From contig JAKADW010000130.1 of NCBI GenBank assembly GCA_021820165.1, positions 1 through 6,377 on the forward strand: 6,377 nt of DNA. Reading direction: 5' to 3'. Positions 1 to 6,377 of this stretch are shown here, one piece after another. The notes under the pieces are model-generated. The model saw only the letters and a list, made by a program, of their open reading frames with translations, was not told where the DNA came from and did not search any database. The stretch comes from Bacillota bacterium (GTDB lineage: Bacteria; Bacillota_E; Sulfobacillia; Sulfobacillales; Sulfobacillaceae). Position numbers and translations under genes: made by a program. Position 1 is the stretch's first letter, and each line of letters starts with the position of its first letter.

Positions 1-45
1 GCCGATTTGCAGAGCCCCCAAATGAGAATCAGTTTCTGGTAGCAT
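1..45 (-). CDS. N-terminus of a divergent gene, product unknown (partial)
   Basis: On the minus strand an ATG at 45-43 opens a frame that stays open to the window edge, 15 codons reading MLPETDSHLGALQIG. It is preceded by a strong Shine-Dalgarno sequence, AGGAGGG (complement of 52-58), six bases from the ATG. The frame is too short to recognise a family, and no function is proposed. The case for a real gene rests on the ribosome binding site and on a GTGAT-N4-GTCAC element at 136-149 that points toward it, as at the other three transcription units. It would be transcribed divergently from the mevalonate operon. Confidence 0.5.
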   Translation of the reverse strand, partial: MLPETDSHLGALQIG

Positions 46-135: not shown

Positions 136-149
136 GTGACTTGGATCAC
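136..149 (-). promoter_or_regulatory. Crp/Fnr-like operator candidate, copy A (divergent gene)
   Basis: Read on the minus strand this is GTGATCCAAGTCAC. With its flanking bases it forms a perfect TGTGA-N6-TCACA (135-150), the classical CRP consensus. It ends 90 bases upstream of the minus-strand ATG at 45 and has the same orientation relative to that gene as copies B, C and D have to theirs. The regulator is not in the window. Assignment to the Crp/Fnr superfamily rests on the half-site only. Confidence 0.55.
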
Positions 150-256
150 ATATGGAATGGGGTCTTTCGTGTTGGTGGTCGCGGCTCCGTGGTTAGGAAG
201 CGGGGCGATATCCGCCCTTGACCATGAAGCTTCGCCCGATCCTGGGGAAGCACATT

Positions 257-270
257 GTGATTTTCGTCAC
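257..270 (+). promoter_or_regulatory. Crp/Fnr-like operator candidate, copy B (mevalonate operon)
   Basis: The sequence is GTGATTTTCGTCAC; with flanks it is TGTGA-N6-TCACC, 9 of 10 to the CRP consensus. It ends 62 bases before the ATG of the first operon gene. Its centre (263.5) lies about 43 bases upstream of the start site expected from the -10-like hexamer at 295-300. That matches the roughly -41.5 position of class II Crp/Fnr activators. Activation rather than repression is inferred from this spacing, helped by the lack of a good -35 box. Confidence 0.6.
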
Positions 271-294
271 CGTCTTCTTTGCGAGGCGTGAAAT

Positions 295-300
295 GATAAT
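295..300 (+). promoter_or_regulatory. -10-like hexamer of the mevalonate operon promoter
   Basis: GATAAT matches the TATAAT consensus at five of six positions and is followed about seven bases later by a plausible start site near 306-307. No recognisable TTGACA-like -35 element lies 15 to 18 bases upstream, where the sequence is C/T-rich. This would fit a promoter that depends on an activator at the 257-270 element. No experiment supports it, and a GATAAT hexamer can occur by chance. Confidence 0.4.
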
Positions 301-332
301 TCTACATCGGTTCCACAAGAGAGGGTTTGAAG

Positions 333-902
333 ATGCCAATTTATACGCGGCGTGGCGATAGGGGGAAAACACAGGTCATTGGAAGCGTCCGACGCTTCAA
401 GGACGATGCCCGTGTTCAAGCATATGGTAGCGTGGATGAAGCAGGAGCCATTGTTGGACTCGCACTTAGTTTGCTAGGAAGCGATGCCCGGTTTCAAGAT
501 ATCAGCACGGTTCTCATCGAGGTGCAGCAGACGCTGTGGGACGTCGGCGCGGACTTGGCGCGCGTTGAAGATACGAGACACCCTTATCGGACGAGTAGCG
601 AGGATGTTCAATGTCTGGAGCGCACCATCGATGAAATTGACAGAGAATGTCCGCCGTTAGAACGATTTATTTTACGCGGAGGCACGCCCGGCGCGGCATC
701 ACTACATTGGGCCTGCACGGTGGTTCGTCGCGCAGAGCGTGAGGCGGTCCACCTTCAGCAAATTGAAGCCGTTCATCCAATCGCCGTTCAGTATCTTAAT
801 CGTCTGTCAGACCTTTTGTTTGTGCTCGCTCGTGTGGTCAATGCTCGGGCTGGGCAGGCTGAAATCGAATACGTTCGCAGCGCACGCGTCTTTCACCATT
901 AA
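333..902 (+). CDS. pduO: PduO-type ATP:cob(I)alamin adenosyltransferase homologue
   Basis: This 189-residue protein belongs to the PduO/MMAB family, which transfers adenosyl from ATP to cob(I)alamin to make coenzyme B12. The ATG at 333 is chosen over TTG 327 because AGAGAGGG (318-325) sits seven bases before it. Family landmarks are the N-terminal ATP loop TRRGDRGKT (5-13), AYGSVDE (30-36) with Asp35, Phe112 before GGT (116-118), RRAER (132-136) with Arg132, and the C-terminal YLNRLSDLLFVLARVVN (154-170). Length matches the family, and residue numbers coincide with those I recall for Lactobacillus reuteri PduO. There the equivalent of residue 128 is an arginine that salt-bridges Asp35 across the subunit interface; here it is Cys128 (TGC at 714-716). 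The enzyme may therefore be weak or repurposed. It lies 26 bases upstream of mvaA and is probably cotranscribed with it. No B12-dependent enzyme is visible nearby. Confidence 0.87.
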   Translation: MPIYTRRGDRGKTQVIGSVRRFKDDARVQAYGSVDEAGAIVGLALSLLGSDARFQDISTVLIEVQQTLWDVGADLARVEDTRHPYRTSSEDVQCLERTIDEIDRECPPLERFILRGGTPGAASLHWACTVVRRAEREAVHLQQIEAVHPIAVQYLNRLSDLLFVLARVVNARAGQAEIEYVRSARVFHH

Positions 903-928
903 CCTATCACAGAGGAGGATTTACCTTC

Positions 929-2128
929 ATGACGTCGCGAGTGCCCGGGTTTTTCACGCTCCCAATGGAGGAACGGCTGCGTATCATTGCCACACTCTGT
1001 GACTTGACGGCGGAGGACGTGCAATCCTTGTTACCTGGCGGAGGACTGCCTTTGGATCAGGCAGATCGAATGATCGAAAATGCTCTCGGACTCTTTGCCA
1101 TCCCATTTGGGGTGGCCACAAATTTCCTAGTCAACGGTAAAAGCTATTTTGTACCCATGGTCGTTGAGGAACCCTCCATTGTCGCTTCGGCCAGCAACAT
1201 GGCGAAAATTGTTCGTAAGGCCGGCGGGTTCACGGCGAATGCCAGCGGCCGACTAATGATAGGACAAATTCAACTACTCCATTGTAGCGATTGGGAGTCA
1301 GCCCGTCAGCACCTGCTCCAAAATAAGGACAAGTTGTTGAACCGCGCTAATGACGCTCGTCCGTCCATGAAAGCGCGAGGAGGCGGCGCAAAAGATTTAG
1401 AGGTGAAGCTTCTGACGGTTCCCAGCGACAAAGATTGGCTTCCCATGCTTGTTATCCAAGTGACCGTTGATACCCGGGATGCAATGGGAGCGAATGTGAT
1501 TGACGGCATGATGGAAGCTATCGCTCCGGACGTGGAGACCATTACCGGTGGGCGTGTTTACCTAAGGATTCTCTCCAATTTCACCGCCCAATGTCTCGCT
1601 GAGGCTCATTGTCGAATTCCCGCGGAACTTCTCGCAACCCAAGGCCTGAACGGGGAGGAAGTGCGCGATCGCATCGTTCAAGCTTATGCGTTTGCAGAGA
1701 TGGACCTTTATCGAGCGGTAACCCACAACAAAGGGATTATGAATGGCATCGATGCTGTGGCTGTCGCGACCGGTAACGACTGGCGGGCATTGGAGGCGGC
1801 TTGCCACGCGTACGTGGCCAGAAGCGGGCAATATCATTCCATGACCCGGTGGGCTATTGCAGAGAACGGAGATCTGGTGGGCGCTCTCGAGCTACCTATG
1901 CCGGTGGGGACGGTCGGGGGTGCAATCAGTATCAATCCGGCGGCCCAAGCCGCATTAAAAATTCTTCATATATCCCGTGCAACGGAATTAGCGGAAGTGA
2001 TGGTATCGGTGGGGTTGGCGCAAAATCTTGCTGCTCTCCGGGCGTTAGTCACTGAGGGTATTCAACGGGGTCACATGGCCCTTCATGCCCGCGCTCGACA
2101 GTCCTGGATTTCGGGGGTGAAGTCGTGA
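929..2128 (+). CDS. mvaA: Hydroxymethylglutaryl-CoA reductase, class II
   Basis: The 399-residue protein interconverts HMG-CoA and mevalonate using NAD(P)H. Next to the three downstream kinase/decarboxylase genes it should act in the synthetic direction. Landmarks in order are ENALG (50-54), VVEEPSIVASAS (78-89) with catalytic Glu81, the nucleotide-binding DAMGANV (184-190), THNKGIMNGIDA (265-276) with Lys268, TGNDW (281-285) with Asp284, and GHM (381-383) with His382. These correspond to Glu83, Lys267, Asp283 and His381 of the Pseudomonas mevalonii enzyme. The soluble, membrane-anchor-free form and the length are those of class II. The ATG is preceded by GAGGAGG (912-918), ten bases away. 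NADH versus NADPH preference cannot be read with confidence. The TGA stop overlaps the GTG of mevalonate kinase by four bases. Confidence 0.95.
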   Translation: MTSRVPGFFTLPMEERLRIIATLCDLTAEDVQSLLPGGGLPLDQADRMIENALGLFAIPFGVATNFLVNGKSYFVPMVVEEPSIVASASNMAKIVRKAGGFTANASGRLMIGQIQLLHCSDWESARQHLLQNKDKLLNRANDARPSMKARGGGAKDLEVKLLTVPSDKDWLPMLVIQVTVDTRDAMGANVIDGMMEAIAPDVETITGGRVYLRILSNFTAQCLAEAHCRIPAELLATQGLNGEEVRDRIVQAYAFAEMDLYRAVTHNKGIMNGIDAVAVATGNDWRALEAACHAYVARSGQYHSMTRWAIAENGDLVGALELPMPVGTVGGAISINPAAQAALKILHISRATELAEVMVSVGLAQNLAALRALVTEGIQRGHMALHARARQSWISGVKS

Positions 2129-3072
2129 TCCGAACAGGTCAAGGAGTCGGAACCACGCATGCCAAGGCTCTTTTGATGGGAGAACATGCGGTCGTGTATG
2201 GTTTCCCGGCCGTCGTCGTCCCGCTTTCCGATCTTAAGGTCCGCGCTTACGCTCGGCTCCGTAATGACAATAATTGGCTCACGTGTTCTTTCTACGCGGG
2301 GCCACTGGGAGATGCCCCACAGGAAGTGTCGGGACTTCAGCTTCTCATTAGCGCCGCCATGGAGGAACTCTCGTGGGACGGGTCGGTGGAGATATCCATC
2401 CAGTCGGACATCCCCCCGGGGTACGGACTCGGGTCGAGTGCTGCTGTCGCCGCAGCCGTGGCTCGAGCCCTTTACGATTTAGTGCGCCGAACTCCCTCAC
2501 GAGAAAAGTTGTTGGAGCTGGTGGGGGTTAGCGAGACGATATACCATGGGGTACCGAGCGGAGTCGATGCGATGGCGGCCATCAGCGATAAGCCCCTATG
2601 GTTTGTTCGCGGTCACCCGCCGATGCCCATTTCTATTGGCGCCCCCATGTTTTTGGTATTAGCCGCCACATCCCAACCCGCCAATACCCGGCAGATGGTG
2701 CAAAGGGTCCGGGGAATCCAAGAGCGATTTGGTCTTGGGGCGGGGCCCATTCATCGCATTGGGGCCTTAACAAGGGCCTCGCGAACAGCTCTGGAGCACG
2801 GAGATTACCCGTACGTTGGGGCCTTGATGACGGAAGTCCATCGAGAACTTGTTGCGTTGAACACTACGACACCGGCAATGGACCGCTTGATTACCGTGGC
2901 CTTGGGACACGGGGCGCTTGGTGCCAAACTGACGGGAAGTGGTGGGGGTGGTTCTATTGTTGTCCTCGTGCAAGATGCGGAGAAGCAGCGACAGGTAGCC
3001 GAGGGTTTGAAATTAGCCGGTGCCTCGGCTGTGTGGACCCCGACTTTCGGGGCTATTGGGAGGACGAATTAA
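2125..3072 (+). CDS. mvk: Mevalonate kinase (GHMP family)
   Basis: The 315-residue protein phosphorylates mevalonate to 5-phosphomevalonate with ATP. The three GHMP motifs are present: HAKALLMGEHAVVYG (12-26) with Lys14; IPPGYGLGSSAAVAAA (96-111), the phosphate loop; and KLTGSGGGGSIVVL (268-281). SETIYHGVPSGVDA (136-149) carries Glu137 and Asp148, spaced eleven residues apart as are Glu193 and Asp204 in human mevalonate kinase. The HGVPSGVD block separates it from the phosphomevalonate kinase further down. The GTG start overlaps the mvaA stop as GTGA, with GGGGGTGA just upstream, so translation is probably coupled. The length is typical of bacterial and archaeal forms. Confidence 0.94.
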   Translation: MIRTGQGVGTTHAKALLMGEHAVVYGFPAVVVPLSDLKVRAYARLRNDNNWLTCSFYAGPLGDAPQEVSGLQLLISAAMEELSWDGSVEISIQSDIPPGYGLGSSAAVAAAVARALYDLVRRTPSREKLLELVGVSETIYHGVPSGVDAMAAISDKPLWFVRGHPPMPISIGAPMFLVLAATSQPANTRQMVQRVRGIQERFGLGAGPIHRIGALTRASRTALEHGDYPYVGALMTEVHRELVALNTTTPAMDRLITVALGHGALGAKLTGSGGGGSIVVLVQDAEKQRQVAEGLKLAGASAVWTPTFGAIGRTN

Positions 3073-3073
3073 G

Positions 3074-4063
3074 GTGCATCGAGGGGTTGCCCAAGCTCAT
3101 ATCAATATTGCGCTAGTCAAATATTGGGGCAAGCGTGACGCGCGCCTCAACCTTCCTCTGAACGGTAGTATTTCTGTTACTCTGGACCATTATTTTGTCA
3201 CCGCCTCGGTTGTCTTAGTACCGGACCGGCCGCACAACACTGTGCTGGTGAATGGTGTGCAGGCCTCAGGGATCGAATATGGACGCGTCTCAGACTTTCT
3301 CGATCGGCTGAAACAGGTTGCCGGCGTAAGTGGGGGAGCCCAGGCAGAGACGACAGCGAACGTTCCCATGGCATCGGGCCTTGCGTCCTCATCGGCGGTA
3401 TTTGCTGCTTTGACAAAAGCGTTTGCCGTGTCGCTTAAACTTTCCTGGTCTGACACAGATTTGTCGCGTCTTGCACGTTTAGGGTCTGGGTCGGCCTGCC
3501 GGTCCGTCCATGGAGGATTTGTGGAGTGGACCAAAGGGAGCCGTCCAGATGGACAGGACTCCTGTGCCGTACCATTGGCGCCGCTTAATAGTTGGCCATC
3601 ACTAACGGTCCTTGTGGTGAAGGTTGAGGCAGGCCCAAAGGCGGTGTCCAGTCGGGACGGAATGCAGCGGGTGATCGACACGTCCCCGTTGTATCCCGGC
3701 TGGTTGGCCAGTGTCGACGACGATTTGCGCAGGGCTCGCGACGCGATTGCCCAGAAGGATCTAACCCGATTGGGGTTAGTAGCCGAATCTAATGCACTTA
3801 AGATGCACGCCACGGCGCTTTCGGCGAAGCCCCCGATTATTTATTGGACTGGTGCCACCGTGTCGGTCATCCGTCGCGTACAAGAGATGAGAATAGCGGG
3901 ATTGGAGGCGTATGTAACTATCGATGCTGGCCCTCATCCGATCATCTTGGCGGACAAGCGCCACGCCCAAGACATTGCCGACCGATTGTCTGAAATTCCG
4001 GGGGTTGCCGAGGTAGTCGCGACCCGGCCGGGTCCTGGAGTTGAGGCGGTTGCTCCGATATGA
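3074..4063 (+). CDS. mvaD: Diphosphomevalonate decarboxylase
   Basis: The 329-residue enzyme converts mevalonate 5-diphosphate to isopentenyl diphosphate in an ATP-dependent decarboxylation. Motifs: AHINIALVKYWGKRD (8-22); the phosphate loop MASGLASSSAVFAAL (99-113); ARLGSGSACRSVHGGFVEW (134-152) with Arg143; VSSRDGM (191-197); and YVTIDAGPH (280-288) with catalytic Asp284. Numbering runs parallel to the Staphylococcus epidermidis enzyme (Arg144, Ser192, Asp283). Presence of the Asp and of the Ser/Arg residues supports a true decarboxylase rather than a mevalonate 3-kinase. The GTG at 3074 is chosen because GGGAGG (3058-3063) lies ten bases upstream and the motif-bearing N-terminus begins at once. 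An in-frame GTG at 3020 would add 18 poor residues inside mvk. The usual DAGPN reads DAGPH. One base separates it from the mvk stop. Confidence 0.94.
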   Translation: MHRGVAQAHINIALVKYWGKRDARLNLPLNGSISVTLDHYFVTASVVLVPDRPHNTVLVNGVQASGIEYGRVSDFLDRLKQVAGVSGGAQAETTANVPMASGLASSSAVFAALTKAFAVSLKLSWSDTDLSRLARLGSGSACRSVHGGFVEWTKGSRPDGQDSCAVPLAPLNSWPSLTVLVVKVEAGPKAVSSRDGMQRVIDTSPLYPGWLASVDDDLRRARDAIAQKDLTRLGLVAESNALKMHATALSAKPPIIYWTGATVSVIRRVQEMRIAGLEAYVTIDAGPHPIILADKRHAQDIADRLSEIPGVAEVVATRPGPGVEAVAPI

Positions 4064-5154
4064 ACTTTTTGACGGTGCGAGTCCCCGGGAAATTGATGTT
4101 GATGGGTGAATACGCCGTGACCGAATTAGGACACCCCGGCGTAGTTGCGGCCATCAATCGCTACCTTCAGTGCCAGCTACGCGCAAGCCCGCGGTTTTCC
4201 CTGACATTTGGAAGTGCTAGGGGGCTAGTAATAAGCGCGGACACGTGGGATGACTTGCTGAACCATCTGTGTGCCGACTCAGCCTTGCGATTTTCCGCCG
4301 AATCGGTCCGTATTTTGGACCACTATTTCCGCGATACGGGGGTCCTGCCCCGCCCATTTGAGCTACGGGTTACCACCGACCTTCAAGCCCCGTCAGGAAA
4401 GAAGTATGGACTGGGATCAAGTTCGGCATTGACAGCGGCTATCGTCGCTAGCCTACTCACGTGGACTCTGTCTCGTTCGGTGGACAAAGAAAAGATTTTT
4501 AAATTGGCCGCCTTGGCCCATCTTGCCGTCCAACCGCGGGGGTCCTTGGCCGACTTAGCGGCCGCCGTCTTCGGCGGCGTCATATGTTATCAACGTTTTG
4601 ACGCCCCGCGCGTCATTCGATGGCGCACCGGCCAACGCCTTTCCACCCTCGCGGAGCGTCCTTGGCCAGGCCTCATGGTAACCCCACTAACGGTAGATTT
4701 CCCCGTTCCCTGGCGGGTCGGCTGGACGGGAAAGACTGCCTCGACGCCTAAAATGTTAGACCAGGCCGTTCAGTTTCGTTGTGCCCACCCCAAGACCCAT
4801 GCCGATTTTTTGGCGCGCAGTGACGCCGCTGTCAGGGAGTTTGTCGGGGCGCTCAACACCCATAGTGGTCGTGGGGTTCAAGACGCCGTACGCCAAAATC
4901 GCCACGCCTTAAAAGAATGGGGGACCCGGGCGCAACTCGCAATCGAAACGCCAGCAATGCAAAATGCCTTGGATCTGGTGGAATCCTGGGGTGGTGCGGG
5001 AAAGTCTTCAGGGGCAGGAGGAGGCGACATCATCGTGGGGTGGATTAATCGTGCCCAGCAGGAGGGCCTCGGCCGCGCCTGGGATGGTCTAAACATTGAA
5101 ACGCTATTCGTGAATGTCGACGTGAAAGGCATGACTGTACAGTTTGGTGAATAA
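4060..5154 (+). CDS. mvaK2: Phosphomevalonate kinase (GHMP family)
   Basis: The 364-residue protein phosphorylates 5-phosphomevalonate to the diphosphate, the step between mvk and mvaD. Evidence: VPGKLMLMGEYAV (8-20) with Lys11; KKYGLGSSSALTAA (114-127); GSLADLAAAVFGG (161-173) with probable catalytic Asp165; GWTGKTAST (221-229), resembling the WTGxPAST block typical of bacterial phosphomevalonate kinases; and the C-terminal glycine motif GAGKSSGAGGGDIIVG (312-327). The length fits the family. Its ATG overlaps the mvaD stop (ATGA). GAGGCGG (4043-4049) is a moderate ribosome binding site, so translational coupling is likely. The loop reads GSLAD, where a small residue is more common at the third position. 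I see no terminator after the gene. Confidence 0.93.
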   Translation: MNFLTVRVPGKLMLMGEYAVTELGHPGVVAAINRYLQCQLRASPRFSLTFGSARGLVISADTWDDLLNHLCADSALRFSAESVRILDHYFRDTGVLPRPFELRVTTDLQAPSGKKYGLGSSSALTAAIVASLLTWTLSRSVDKEKIFKLAALAHLAVQPRGSLADLAAAVFGGVICYQRFDAPRVIRWRTGQRLSTLAERPWPGLMVTPLTVDFPVPWRVGWTGKTASTPKMLDQAVQFRCAHPKTHADFLARSDAAVREFVGALNTHSGRGVQDAVRQNRHALKEWGTRAQLAIETPAMQNALDLVESWGGAGKSSGAGGGDIIVGWINRAQQEGLGRAWDGLNIETLFVNVDVKGMTVQFGE

Positions 5155-5170
5155 ATTGCCGTTCTTGGTG

Positions 5171-5184
5171 GTGATCCTGGTCAC
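5171..5184 (+). promoter_or_regulatory. Crp/Fnr-like operator candidate, copy C (DUF2249 gene)
   Basis: GTGATCCTGGTCAC lies in the 101-base gap between mvaK2 and the DUF2249 gene and ends 71 bases before its ATG. With flanks it is GGTGA-N6-TCACG, 8 of 10 to the CRP consensus. It suggests that the small gene has its own regulated promoter and does not depend only on readthrough from the operon. I could not see a convincing -10 hexamer at the expected distance. Confidence 0.5.
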
Positions 5185-5255
5185 GATGTTCGACGAGAGC
5201 AAACCGCATGCTCTTCATGGACAGAGATTTCAAAAAATAGGAGGTATCGTTTTCC

Positions 5256-5489
5256 ATGTCTGAGCCAGTGATTATTATCAATTGGCCATTGTTGCCCCCA
5301 CCTGTGAAGCATCAGGCCATTTTAGGGACACTGGATGCCGTTCCCCAAGGCTTTTCAGCCCTCTTGATTAACGATCACGACCCCAAGCCTTTGTTGTACC
5401 AGTTGGATGCTGAACAGCCTGGAGCGTTTTCCGTCGAATATCAAGAATCGGGGCCGACGCGGTTCGCGATTTTATTGGCACGAAACTGA
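5256..5489 (+). CDS. DUF2249 domain protein
   Basis: The 77-residue protein consists of a single DUF2249 domain. The hallmark is INDHDPKPLLYQLDAEQPGAFSVEY (38-62, key residues His41, Asp42, Pro43, Lys44, Pro45), followed by ESGPTRFAILLARN at the C-terminus. No signal peptide or membrane segment is seen, so it is probably cytosolic. The biochemical function of the family is unsettled. From memory, its members often occur next to nitric oxide, nitrite or hemerythrin-type genes, which hints at a redox or nitrosative-stress role; that is inference only. An excellent ribosome binding site, AGGAGGT (5239-5245), lies ten bases before the ATG. The gene has its own leader with operator copy C and ends just before a two-way terminator. 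It has no visible tie to isoprenoid chemistry. Confidence 0.88.
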   Translation: MSEPVIIINWPLLPPPVKHQAILGTLDAVPQGFSALLINDHDPKPLLYQLDAEQPGAFSVEYQESGPTRFAILLARN

Positions 5490-5496
5490 AACTAAA

Positions 5497-5529
5497 AAAT
5501 CAGGGGTGTCTTGGCGCCGCCCCTGATTT
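5497..5529. terminator. Bidirectional intrinsic terminator
   Basis: AAATCAGGGG (5497-5506) and CCCCTGATTT (5520-5529) form a perfect 10-base-pair stem with a 13-base loop. The run of A at 5494-5499 becomes a T-tract on the minus strand, making a strong terminator for the AhpD-like gene. On the plus strand the tail is TTTCATTAT, a weaker but usable terminator for the DUF2249 gene and any readthrough from the mevalonate operon. It sits exactly between two convergent genes. Confidence 0.88.
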
Positions 5530-5531
5530 CA

Positions 5532-6011
5532 TTATCGCGCCAGGTCTGGTCGGTAAGTGCCGGGCTGCTCGGCTTTCAGGCTAATGGCCCAGCGGTTCCA
5601 CGCATTAATTGCGATGACCGCCGCAGTGAGCGCGGCAATCTCACGGGGACTGAAGTGCTCTTTGAGAGGAAGGTAAGTGGCCTCGGGCACTCTCCCAGCT
5701 ATAGCGGTAACGGCCTCCGCCCACTCCAGCGCTGTACGCTCACGCGTGGAATAAAAAGGTGCTTCGGGCCACGCGGACAGGGCATAAATGCGCTGCTCGC
5801 GTTCTCCGGCATTTCGCGCTTCCTTGGTGTGCATGTCGAGGCAGTAGGCGCACCCATTAATCTACGACACCCGGATTTTCACTAATTCAAGAAGATCCCG
5901 AGGGATTCCGGCGTGGTGGGCCACGGCTTCTAATTGCACCATGGCATCTCGCGCTTTAGGCAACACCGTGGTCCAATCGATACGCGCCGTTCCCTCAATA
6001 TTTTCACTCAT
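5532..6011 (-). pseudogene. AhpD/carboxymuconolactone decarboxylase-like gene with in-frame TAG
   Basis: The minus-strand frame runs from ATG at 6011 to TAA at 5532, 160 codons including the stop. It is open except for one TAG at codon 50 (5862-5864). The sequence around it reads LLELVKIRVS, stop, INGCAYCLDMHTKEAR, where family members usually have Gln (KIRASQINGCAYC), so a CAG-to-TAG change is the simplest explanation. The alkylhydroperoxidase (AhpD) residues follow: Cys54, Cys57 and His61, with Glu42 before the stop. Both ends look intact: an AGGGGAA ribosome binding site upstream of the ATG, an operator-like element further up, and a perfect terminator downstream. Restarting at ATG 5834 would give a 100-residue product without the CxxC, unlikely to be active. 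The gene would have been a cytosolic peroxidase-like, redox-protective protein. Alternatives are a recent nonsense mutation, a sequencing error or readthrough. Confidence 0.85.
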
Positions 6012-6209
6012 TGGCTATTCCCCTCGTATAAAGATAGCGGGCTTTCTATCTATCGGCATGCCATACTGTCGAGACGGCCGCGTGACAAACATCACAACTC
6101 CCGAAGCATGGCACTCTCAAAAGAGCCGGTGAGGCTGGGCATCAGCATCGGTGCATCCTGCATGGACCCGCAACCACGCAAGAAAGTCCTGTGATTCAAT
6201 CATTCCGAA
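6012..6209. other. Leader of the AhpD-like gene; no convincing gene
   Basis: This 198-base stretch lies between the AhpD-like start and the proposed omega RNA. It contains operator copy D (6082-6095). On the minus strand there is a weak promoter-like stretch: CTCGACA near 6066-6072, then GATAGATAGAAA around 6043-6054. An 8-base palindrome, GGCATGCC, lies at 6055-6062. A 28-codon minus-strand frame (6203-6117) has no ribosome binding site or recognisable content. I see no credible coding region on either strand. Confidence 0.55.
6082..6095 (-). promoter_or_regulatory. Crp/Fnr-like operator candidate, copy D (AhpD-like gene)
   Basis: Read on the minus strand this is GTGATGTTTGTCAC; with flanks it is TGTGA-N6-TCACG, 9 of 10 to the CRP consensus. 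It ends 70 bases upstream of the minus-strand ATG at 6011, nearly the same distance as copy C from its gene. It is closest to copy B: with two flanking T bases, the two agree at 14 of 16 positions. Confidence 0.55.
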
Positions 6210-6377
6210 TGGCTCTCATGAATTGCGGTTCAAACCCTACGTCGAAAGAACTGAGGACCGGGCGCCAAGATAAGCTGACCGTTTCGAGCCGGTGAAATTC
6301 CGGTCTCCGCAAGGACTAGCCCTCCACGGAGAATCGAGTTTTGGGTCCGAGGCCGTGAGACCTCGGGCTAAGCGTAA
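6210..6377 (+). ncRNA. Probable IscB/IsrB omega RNA (HEARO-like), left end of an IS200/IS605-type element
   Basis: No reading frame explains this stretch, but it is rich in nested complementarity. There is a CCGG hairpin (6289-6292 with 6300-6303), TCTCCG pairing with CGGAGA (6304-6309 with 6327-6332), and a terminal stem of about nine base pairs centred on CCGAGG/CCTCGG (6347-6352 with 6361-6366). The opening TGGCTCT (6210-6216), a block reading GTCGAAAGAACTGAGG (6241-6256), and GATAAGCTGACCGTTTCGAG (6269-6288) resemble what I remember of HEARO RNAs, the omega RNAs of IscB. The OgeuIscB RNA also begins TGGCTCT and has a GAAAGA...CTGAG block. Such RNAs lie just upstream of the nuclease gene on the same strand, so an iscB or isrB start is expected shortly past the window. 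The assignment is from memory without a covariance search. The 3' end may be cut by the window. Confidence 0.6.

Follow-up and report, generated by a model that had tools for sequence, protein, structure and literature searches.

A predicted Crp/Fnr-type operator shared by a pduO-mevalonate operon and redox-linked genes of the Sulfobacillaceae

Among regulators of the Crp/Fnr superfamily, two described systems stand closest to the one considered here. HcpR, a nitric oxide (NO) regulator, is described as recognizing a CRP-like site, wTGTGAnnnnnnTCACAw, as lacking the cysteines of FNR and as having, by prediction, hemerythrin-like, nar and ndh genes in its regulons (PMC1274295). In Thermus, the CRP-like activator DnrT is tied to nitrate reductase genes and controls the DUF2249 protein DrpA, the nar, nrc, dnr and drp promoters being the targets that its source describes (PMC6282519). 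The present analysis deals with a dyad, GTGAT-N4-GTCAC, repeated upstream of a pduO-mevalonate (pduO-mva) operon and three other genes in a stretch of 6,377 nucleotides (the window) of contig JAKADW010000130.1 from a Bacillota bacterium, probably a member of the Sulfobacillaceae. The four elements are very probably operators of a Crp/Fnr-family activator of about 219 amino acids (aa) present in this family, and sequence comparisons strongly support both the operator and the family of its regulator.

In kind, the predicted regulon is close to the HcpR and DnrT systems; what appears new is the capture of a mevalonate operon and the wide range of redox-related targets. It differs from HcpR in that the regulator reaches no NCBIfam cut-off and in that the putative targets include SufB-type, peroxidase and mevalonate genes. 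With CRP and FNR of Escherichia coli, the regulator shares the fold family and a helix-turn-helix, whereas its identity is 23% to each and their cyclic AMP (cAMP) residues and cysteines are missing. Both isoprenoid pathways, methylerythritol phosphate (MEP) and mevalonate, occur together in 2.42% of 4,249 species (PMC13001223). For two such bacteria, Listeria and Mycobacterium marinum, an oxygen- or stress-related division of labour has been proposed, whereas no operator of the Crp/Fnr type is mentioned for their mevalonate genes in the parts of these sources consulted (PMC12632256, PMC13001223). Among the papers listed by literature searches, none showed Crp/Fnr control of mevalonate genes and, for Sulfobacillus with isoprenoid or mevalonate, none had a title on the regulation of isoprenoid synthesis; the statement in a preliminary description of the window that such control would be unusual is, to that extent, uncontradicted.

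The operator motif and its promoters

An exact pattern scan recovered the four copies of GTGAT-N4-GTCAC at the places, on the strands and at the distances from four start codons that the preliminary description had given (Table 1). None of 200 dinucleotide shuffles reached four copies, the mean expectation being 0.01 per window, and a scan allowing up to two mismatches, which covers every GTGA-N6-TCAC, found no fifth such element in the window, again as previously described. Two finer claims fared less well. All ten bases had been taken as fixed, which holds for the four window copies but not for the relatives, where the family-wide motif is GTGAY-N4-RTCAC. The slight asymmetry, said always to point to the downstream gene, shows no such rule, as 48 oriented site-gene pairs divide into T..G (14), C..A (14), T..A (12) and C..G (8).

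Conservation upstream of orthologous genes, proposed at the outset as a check, was examined in 34 genomes of one family, presumably the Sulfobacillaceae (G-numbers denote genomes and L-numbers loci taken from them), reached through a PduO scan of 398 genomes that led to G162 and from there to its family. Genes were called by an in-house script rather than by a standard annotator, with some incorrect starts (e.g., pduO in L133, L135 and L138). All seven pduO-mva promoters seen, those of the window, G422 (presumably Sulfobacillus harzensis), G425, G428, G427, G162 and G415, carry a GTGAY-N4-RTCAC that begins 73-93 bp upstream of the start codon, and in their MAFFT alignment the operator and a downstream ATGATA-like block are prominent. 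The genes for HMG-CoA reductase (HMGR), mevalonate kinase (MVK), diphosphomevalonate decarboxylase (MvaD) and phosphomevalonate kinase (PMK), all present in the window, follow pduO in five of the six relatives, the pduO contig of G415 ending after HMGR and MVK. HMGR matches occur in 9/34 genomes; left out of the promoter count were those of G412 and G431, a 44-aa piece in G424 and a second operon of G415 (L139). The HMGR loci of G412 and G431 hold other gene sets, with no MVK, MvaD or pduO match and no GTGA-N6-TCAC in the stretch examined, and neither genome has a detected regulator; G431 has an operator site upstream of a DUF2249 gene.

The other window promoters are conserved to a similar extent. 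The site precedes the peroxiredoxin gene in five of five cases, at 90 bp from the start in the window and at 98-109 bp in four relatives; neither L137 nor L138 yielded this gene. It also precedes the 78-aa DUF2249 gene in all six found among the loci examined, 65-72 bp before the start. Its 14 bases and its distance are identical in the window and S. harzensis. The AhpD-like gene has the site in four of five genomes (window, G422, G425 and G428); in G427, the gene follows other genes and has none. A survey of 30 DUF2249 loci, one per genome from 32 genomes with a match, found GTGA-N6-TCAC 80-420 bp upstream of the NDHD motif in 22 and GTGAY-N4-RTCAC anywhere in the locus in 28. The motif is present in one of 16 DXR or IspH loci. 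An Rfam scan of five relative loci gave no match.

A bias towards intergenic sequence, also suggested as a check, was sought in the relatives. The S. harzensis regions scanned (254,672 bp, chosen for a listed site, together with the mva and regulator loci) hold 26 GTGAY-N4-RTCAC sites, of which 21 are intergenic against 20.8% intergenic sequence; without the two purposely chosen loci, the count is 10 of 15 (p 2.4e-4). Pooled with G162, and again without the chosen loci, the count is 17 of 34 against 22.5% (p 4e-4). In other genomes, where smaller stretches around the regulator and mva genes were scanned, the sites are intergenic in 13/13 (G425), 9/9 (G428) and 12/12 (G427) cases; the 5/5 of G415 is weak evidence because the gene caller left half of the sequence uncalled. 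Eleven permuted dyads of the same letters combined give 5/33 intergenic in G422 and 12/69 in G162, mixed motif forms 2/10 and 7/24, and GTGAR-N4-YTCAC 0/2 in G422.

The spacing to the promoter is also constrained. Out of 75 intergenic sites, 48 have a called start 40-130 bp downstream, giving 48 site-gene pairs, orthologues among them, that are not independent of one another. Apart from the site with its flanks, the strongest signal is an A at +30.5 from the centre (32/48), with a T at +34.5 (32/48). A -10-like NANNNT lies at the spacing that puts the centre at -41.5 in 30 pairs and at -40.5 in 11; at least one of three neighbouring offsets has it in 42/48, against 1-15 for 17 other offset triples. 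Among the window copies, the spacing of sites 1 and 3 corresponds to -41.5 and that of site 2 to -40.5 (AATGAT) or -43.5 (GATAAT), and the hexamer of site 4 lacks the final T. A centre near -41.5 adjoining the -10 element matches the class II arrangement of Crp/Fnr activators, and this spacing is shared with CRP and FNR of E. coli. The sites, palindromic GTGA-type dyads with a -10-like hexamer at a fixed spacing, can thus be classed as predicted class II operators of the Crp/Fnr type.

Several results weigh against this assignment. Taken alone, G162 shows a weak bias (15/27 intergenic; 7/19 without the chosen loci, p 0.12), its permuted dyad GGAT is intergenic in 6/16, the highest share among the larger permuted dyads, and its GTGAR-N4-YTCAC sites in 4/9. 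The operator is not universal among the mva operons of the family, as the second set of G415 (HMGR, MVK, MvaD and PMK without pduO; L139:7373-11670 (+)) has no GTGAY-N4-RTCAC near its start; its nearest dyad, GTGATCTTGCTCAC, lies about 210 bp upstream of the HMGR start and outside the motif. In genomes without a detected regulator, four of five DUF2249 loci still have sites, perhaps owing to incomplete assemblies. The co-occurrence of regulator and pduO-mva genes is uninformative because the regulator is present in 27/34 genomes, and its presence in all six pduO-mva genomes is expected by chance with a probability of 0.22. Finally, plain counts of the motif do not tell genomes with a detected regulator from those that lack one. 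Such genome-wide counts, set against the backward pattern, were not accepted as proof, since the seven genomes without a detected regulator exceed that control similarly. This last excess is what would be expected if the dyads were chance or codon-driven repeats, an explanation already contradicted by promoter conservation, the fixed spacing to the -10-like hexamer and the intergenic bias, and to which we attach almost no credence.

A candidate regulator and its putative regulon

The search for a Crp/Fnr gene, a further check proposed initially, identified a protein of S. harzensis (L142:8145-8798, minus strand) with the relatives counted above. In the six pduO-mva genomes, proteins over the PF00027 cut-off number one each in G422, G425, G428 and G162, three in G427 and two in G415, and GTGAY-N4-RTCAC is present in six of eight neighbourhoods of PF00027 genes examined; it is missing around a G415 paralogue and around a further G427 gene. 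In a large database, 76 relatives of the S. harzensis regulator reach E <= 1e-20, the named ones being four Sulfobacillus, two 'Firmicutes bacterium' and one 'Actinomycetia bacterium'.

The protein has the PF00027 cNMP-binding fold, a helix-turn-helix and sequence matches in the PDB, which place it in the Crp/Fnr superfamily. Its recognition helix reads THRETVSR in six aligned regulators, against SRETVGR in CRP and TVETISR in FNR, and the residues at CRP positions R180, E181 and R185 are kept in all six, in line with the earlier assignment of the motif core to the Crp/Fnr half-site. The helix fits a GTGA half-site since R180 and E181 are reported to correlate with G3 and A6 of the site in this family (PMC1274295). 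The regulator is not FNR proper: all six aligned sequences lack cysteine, and TTGAT-N4-ATCAA has 1 and 0 matches in the regions of the permuted-dyad scan. Nor is it CRP proper, as the residues aligned with E72, R82, S83, T127 and S128 of E. coli CRP (mature numbering), which we take to be its cAMP contacts, are I, P, A, V/I and Q/H in 6/6.

These replacements bear directly on the idea that the sites belong to a global carbon regulator similar to cAMP-CRP. In favour of that idea, CRP has the consensus TGTGA-N6-TCACA, and the recognition residues are CRP-like. The HcpR consensus, too, is called CRP-like (PMC1274295). With the cAMP-contact positions replaced in every aligned regulator, the low identity to CRP and scanned genes with sites that are mostly respiratory and redox-related, it appears very improbable.

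In S. harzensis, the gene order is 113-aa gene, DUF2249 gene, regulator, site, MarR, OsmC, 156-aa gene, narG, narH and narJ. No site lies directly upstream of the regulator gene in this genome, and the gene may be co-transcribed with the 113-aa gene. Further sites stand before a hemerythrin gene, a double DUF2249 gene and the 113-aa gene; the last of these has such a site in G425, G427 and G428 as well as in G422. Searched against Pfam and NCBIfam at E <= 0.001, neither the 113-aa protein (L142:9113-9451) nor two proteins of about 425 aa (L142:9552-12106 (-)) near the regulator gave a match. Genes starting 48-130 bp after sites in S. harzensis or relatives encode SufB-core, FeS_assembly_P, Sdh/Frd-type FeS, DUF2249, hemerythrin, redoxin and pyridine-nucleotide oxidoreductase proteins and, less obviously linked, a transglutaminase-like protein, a methyltransferase and a SLAC1-type channel. 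Genes for a copper oxidase (NirK-like, below cut-off), Nramp and Nuo51 lie 246, 395 and 434 bp from sites and are not claimed as targets.

According to the reading proposed here, a regulator dimer would bind GTGAY-N4-RTCAC centred near -41.5 and activate transcription from the adjacent -10 element. The regulon would combine genes for nitrate respiration and Fe-S assembly with DUF2249, hemerythrin and peroxidase genes, and the pduO-mevalonate operon would have been captured into it in some species. The suggestion that one regulator co-controls isoprenoid synthesis, the adenosyltransferase, the DUF2249 protein, the AhpD-like protein and the divergent gene is supported, at the level of sequence, by site conservation and intergenic bias. 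The signal may be NO, oxygen limitation or Fe-S damage, in a protein built neither as an Fe-S FNR nor as a cAMP receptor.

The same operator and activator could instead answer to oxygen limitation or nitrate, in the manner of DnrT or FNR, with the mevalonate operon meeting an anaerobic demand for quinones or lipids and no Fe-S bypass involved. In S. harzensis, narG, narH and narJ follow the regulator at a distance of a few genes, which is consistent with this, as are an Sdh/Frd-type FeS gene located 66 bp after a site, the control of nar and DrpA by DnrT (PMC6282519) and the reported anaerobic growth of S. harzensis on Fe(III) (PMC8489842). The remaining putative targets, peroxidase, hemerythrin and Fe-S assembly genes, fit it less well; the six aligned regulators have no cysteine, and only one of the Sulfobacillus genomes compared in one source has a dissimilatory nitrate reductase (PMC4378227). 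We regard it as a serious contender, somewhat short of an even chance.

Gene content of the window

Table 1. Positions of operators and genes in the 6,377-nucleotide window, with the evidence for each
Feature	Position	Strand	Evidence or remark
Peroxiredoxin, 5' end, divergent, cut by window edge	1..45	-	N-terminus and synteny with L133, L134, L135, L136
Operator 1, perfect TGTGA-N6-TCACA, 90 bp upstream of peroxiredoxin start	136..149	-	-10-like CATCGT at -41.5 spacing
Operator 2, 62 bp upstream of pduO-mva	257..270	+	-10-like TGATAAT at 294-300
pduO, cob(I)alamin adenosyltransferase	333..902	+	PF01923 1.4e-54, TIGR00636
HMG-CoA reductase (HMGR)	929..2128	+	PF00368 1.2e-111, TIGR00532
Mevalonate kinase (MVK)	2125..3072	+	TIGR00549 1.4e-67
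Diphosphomevalonate decarboxylase (MvaD)	3074..4063	+	TIGR01240 8.2e-85
Phosphomevalonate kinase (PMK)	4060..5154	+	TIGR01220 1.4e-68
Operator 3, 71 bp upstream of DUF2249 gene	5171..5184	+	-10-like CATGCT at -41.5 spacing
DUF2249 protein, 77 aa	5256..5489	+	PF10006 4.5e-19
AhpD-like (CMD) gene, interrupted by in-frame TAG	5532..6011	-	profile matches and comparison with relatives
Operator 4, 70 bp upstream of AhpD-like gene	6082..6095	-	CATGCC; G422 and G425 have CATGCT there, -40.5 spacing

The divergent gene at the left edge, correctly described before as preceded by a site but left as an unknown gene, is most simply read as the start of a peroxiredoxin gene: it begins MLPETDSHLGAL, and relatives at the same place have MLPENEPGQSFLQIGDRAP and similar starts, a match of few residues made by eye and supported by synteny. 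In the four relatives, the peroxiredoxin gene beside the mva operon (L133:14099-14749 (-), also L134, L135 and L136) has an in-frame TGA at the position of the peroxidatic cysteine (PADFTPV-TGA-TSEF) in 4/4 cases, which suggests a selenoprotein. The L133 protein scores above the cut-off of NF009668 (peroxiredoxin) and below that of NF040737 (PrxU). The window copy ends at the edge before the position of this codon.

The TAG of the AhpD-like gene, at 5862-5864 (-), stands where four relatives have Gln (CAG or CAA), directly upstream of an NGCAYC motif; it may mark a decayed gene, a sequencing error or a strain variant. The start of a group II intron RNA (RF02005, 59.1 bits) was found at 6295-6377 (+) and continues past the window edge. 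The window HMGR is 98% and 88% identical to two database proteins and 76% identical to that of S. harzensis. An MvaD scan of 149 genomes in the phylum of Ornithinibacillus (G001) found no close relative, and a PMK search of plasmids gave no match of at least 60% identity.

A second isoprenoid route under probable operator control

DXR (PF02670) is found in 33/34 genomes of the family and IspH (PF02401) in 30/34. Both occur in all six relatives with pduO-mva, and the mevalonate genes are therefore a second route there. NO damages [4Fe-4S] clusters. IspG and IspH are described as oxygen-sensitive [4Fe-4S] enzymes (PMC11192765). In G427 and G162, a gene for a type 2 isopentenyl diphosphate (IPP) isomerase lies inside the pduO-mva operon; this enzyme would free the mevalonate branch from IspH for dimethylallyl diphosphate (DMAPP).

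The mevalonate route lacks its usual first enzyme, as no match to HMG-CoA synthase (PF01154) was obtained in any of the 34 genomes, whereas the same model matches 7/14 control genomes. This counts against the proposed reading and against a complete pathway. MVK and MvaD genes occur in some family genomes despite this general absence. Leucine breakdown is a possible source of HMG-CoA, as is import for mevalonate itself. The pduO-mva genes may then serve no de novo pathway at all, but use HMG-CoA from leucine or isovalerate breakdown, mevalonate salvaged from neighbours, or an HMGR that works in the degradative direction. Besides the missing synthase, the TIGR00532 'degradative' label of the HMGR points this way, although that label also covers class II biosynthetic HMGR, which counts against the degradative version. 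The presence of both kinases and the decarboxylase in the operon and of the type 2 IPP isomerase in two genomes fits flux towards isoprenoids. We consider the absence of a de novo pathway to be almost evenly balanced against its presence.

The stress-switch reading proposed here takes the operator and its activator one step further. NO or oxidants would hit [4Fe-4S] enzymes, and the activator would then induce the Fe-S-free mevalonate branch, from HMGR to IPP, together with Fe-S assembly, hemerythrin and peroxidase genes, so that the induced genes would supply IPP without IspG and IspH. What suggests such a bypass is that a branch free of Fe-S enzymes would share its regulon with genes of Fe-S assembly and redox defence. 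As HMG-CoA synthase is missing, the branch might be fed with leucine-derived HMG-CoA or with mevalonate from archaeal neighbours. As a whole, this replacement of IspG and IspH is put forward tentatively and is, in our estimate, rather unlikely.

These observations bear on the question of why some bacteria keep both isoprenoid pathways. In the Sulfobacillaceae with pduO-mva, the second pathway carries a regulatory address, the predicted operator of a regulon for respiration and redox stress. The question thereby becomes testable in a cultured species, S. harzensis (PMC8489842). The DUF2249 and 113-aa proteins encoded beside the regulator gain a physiological frame, and the family-wide motif may be used to predict the regulon in related acidophiles.

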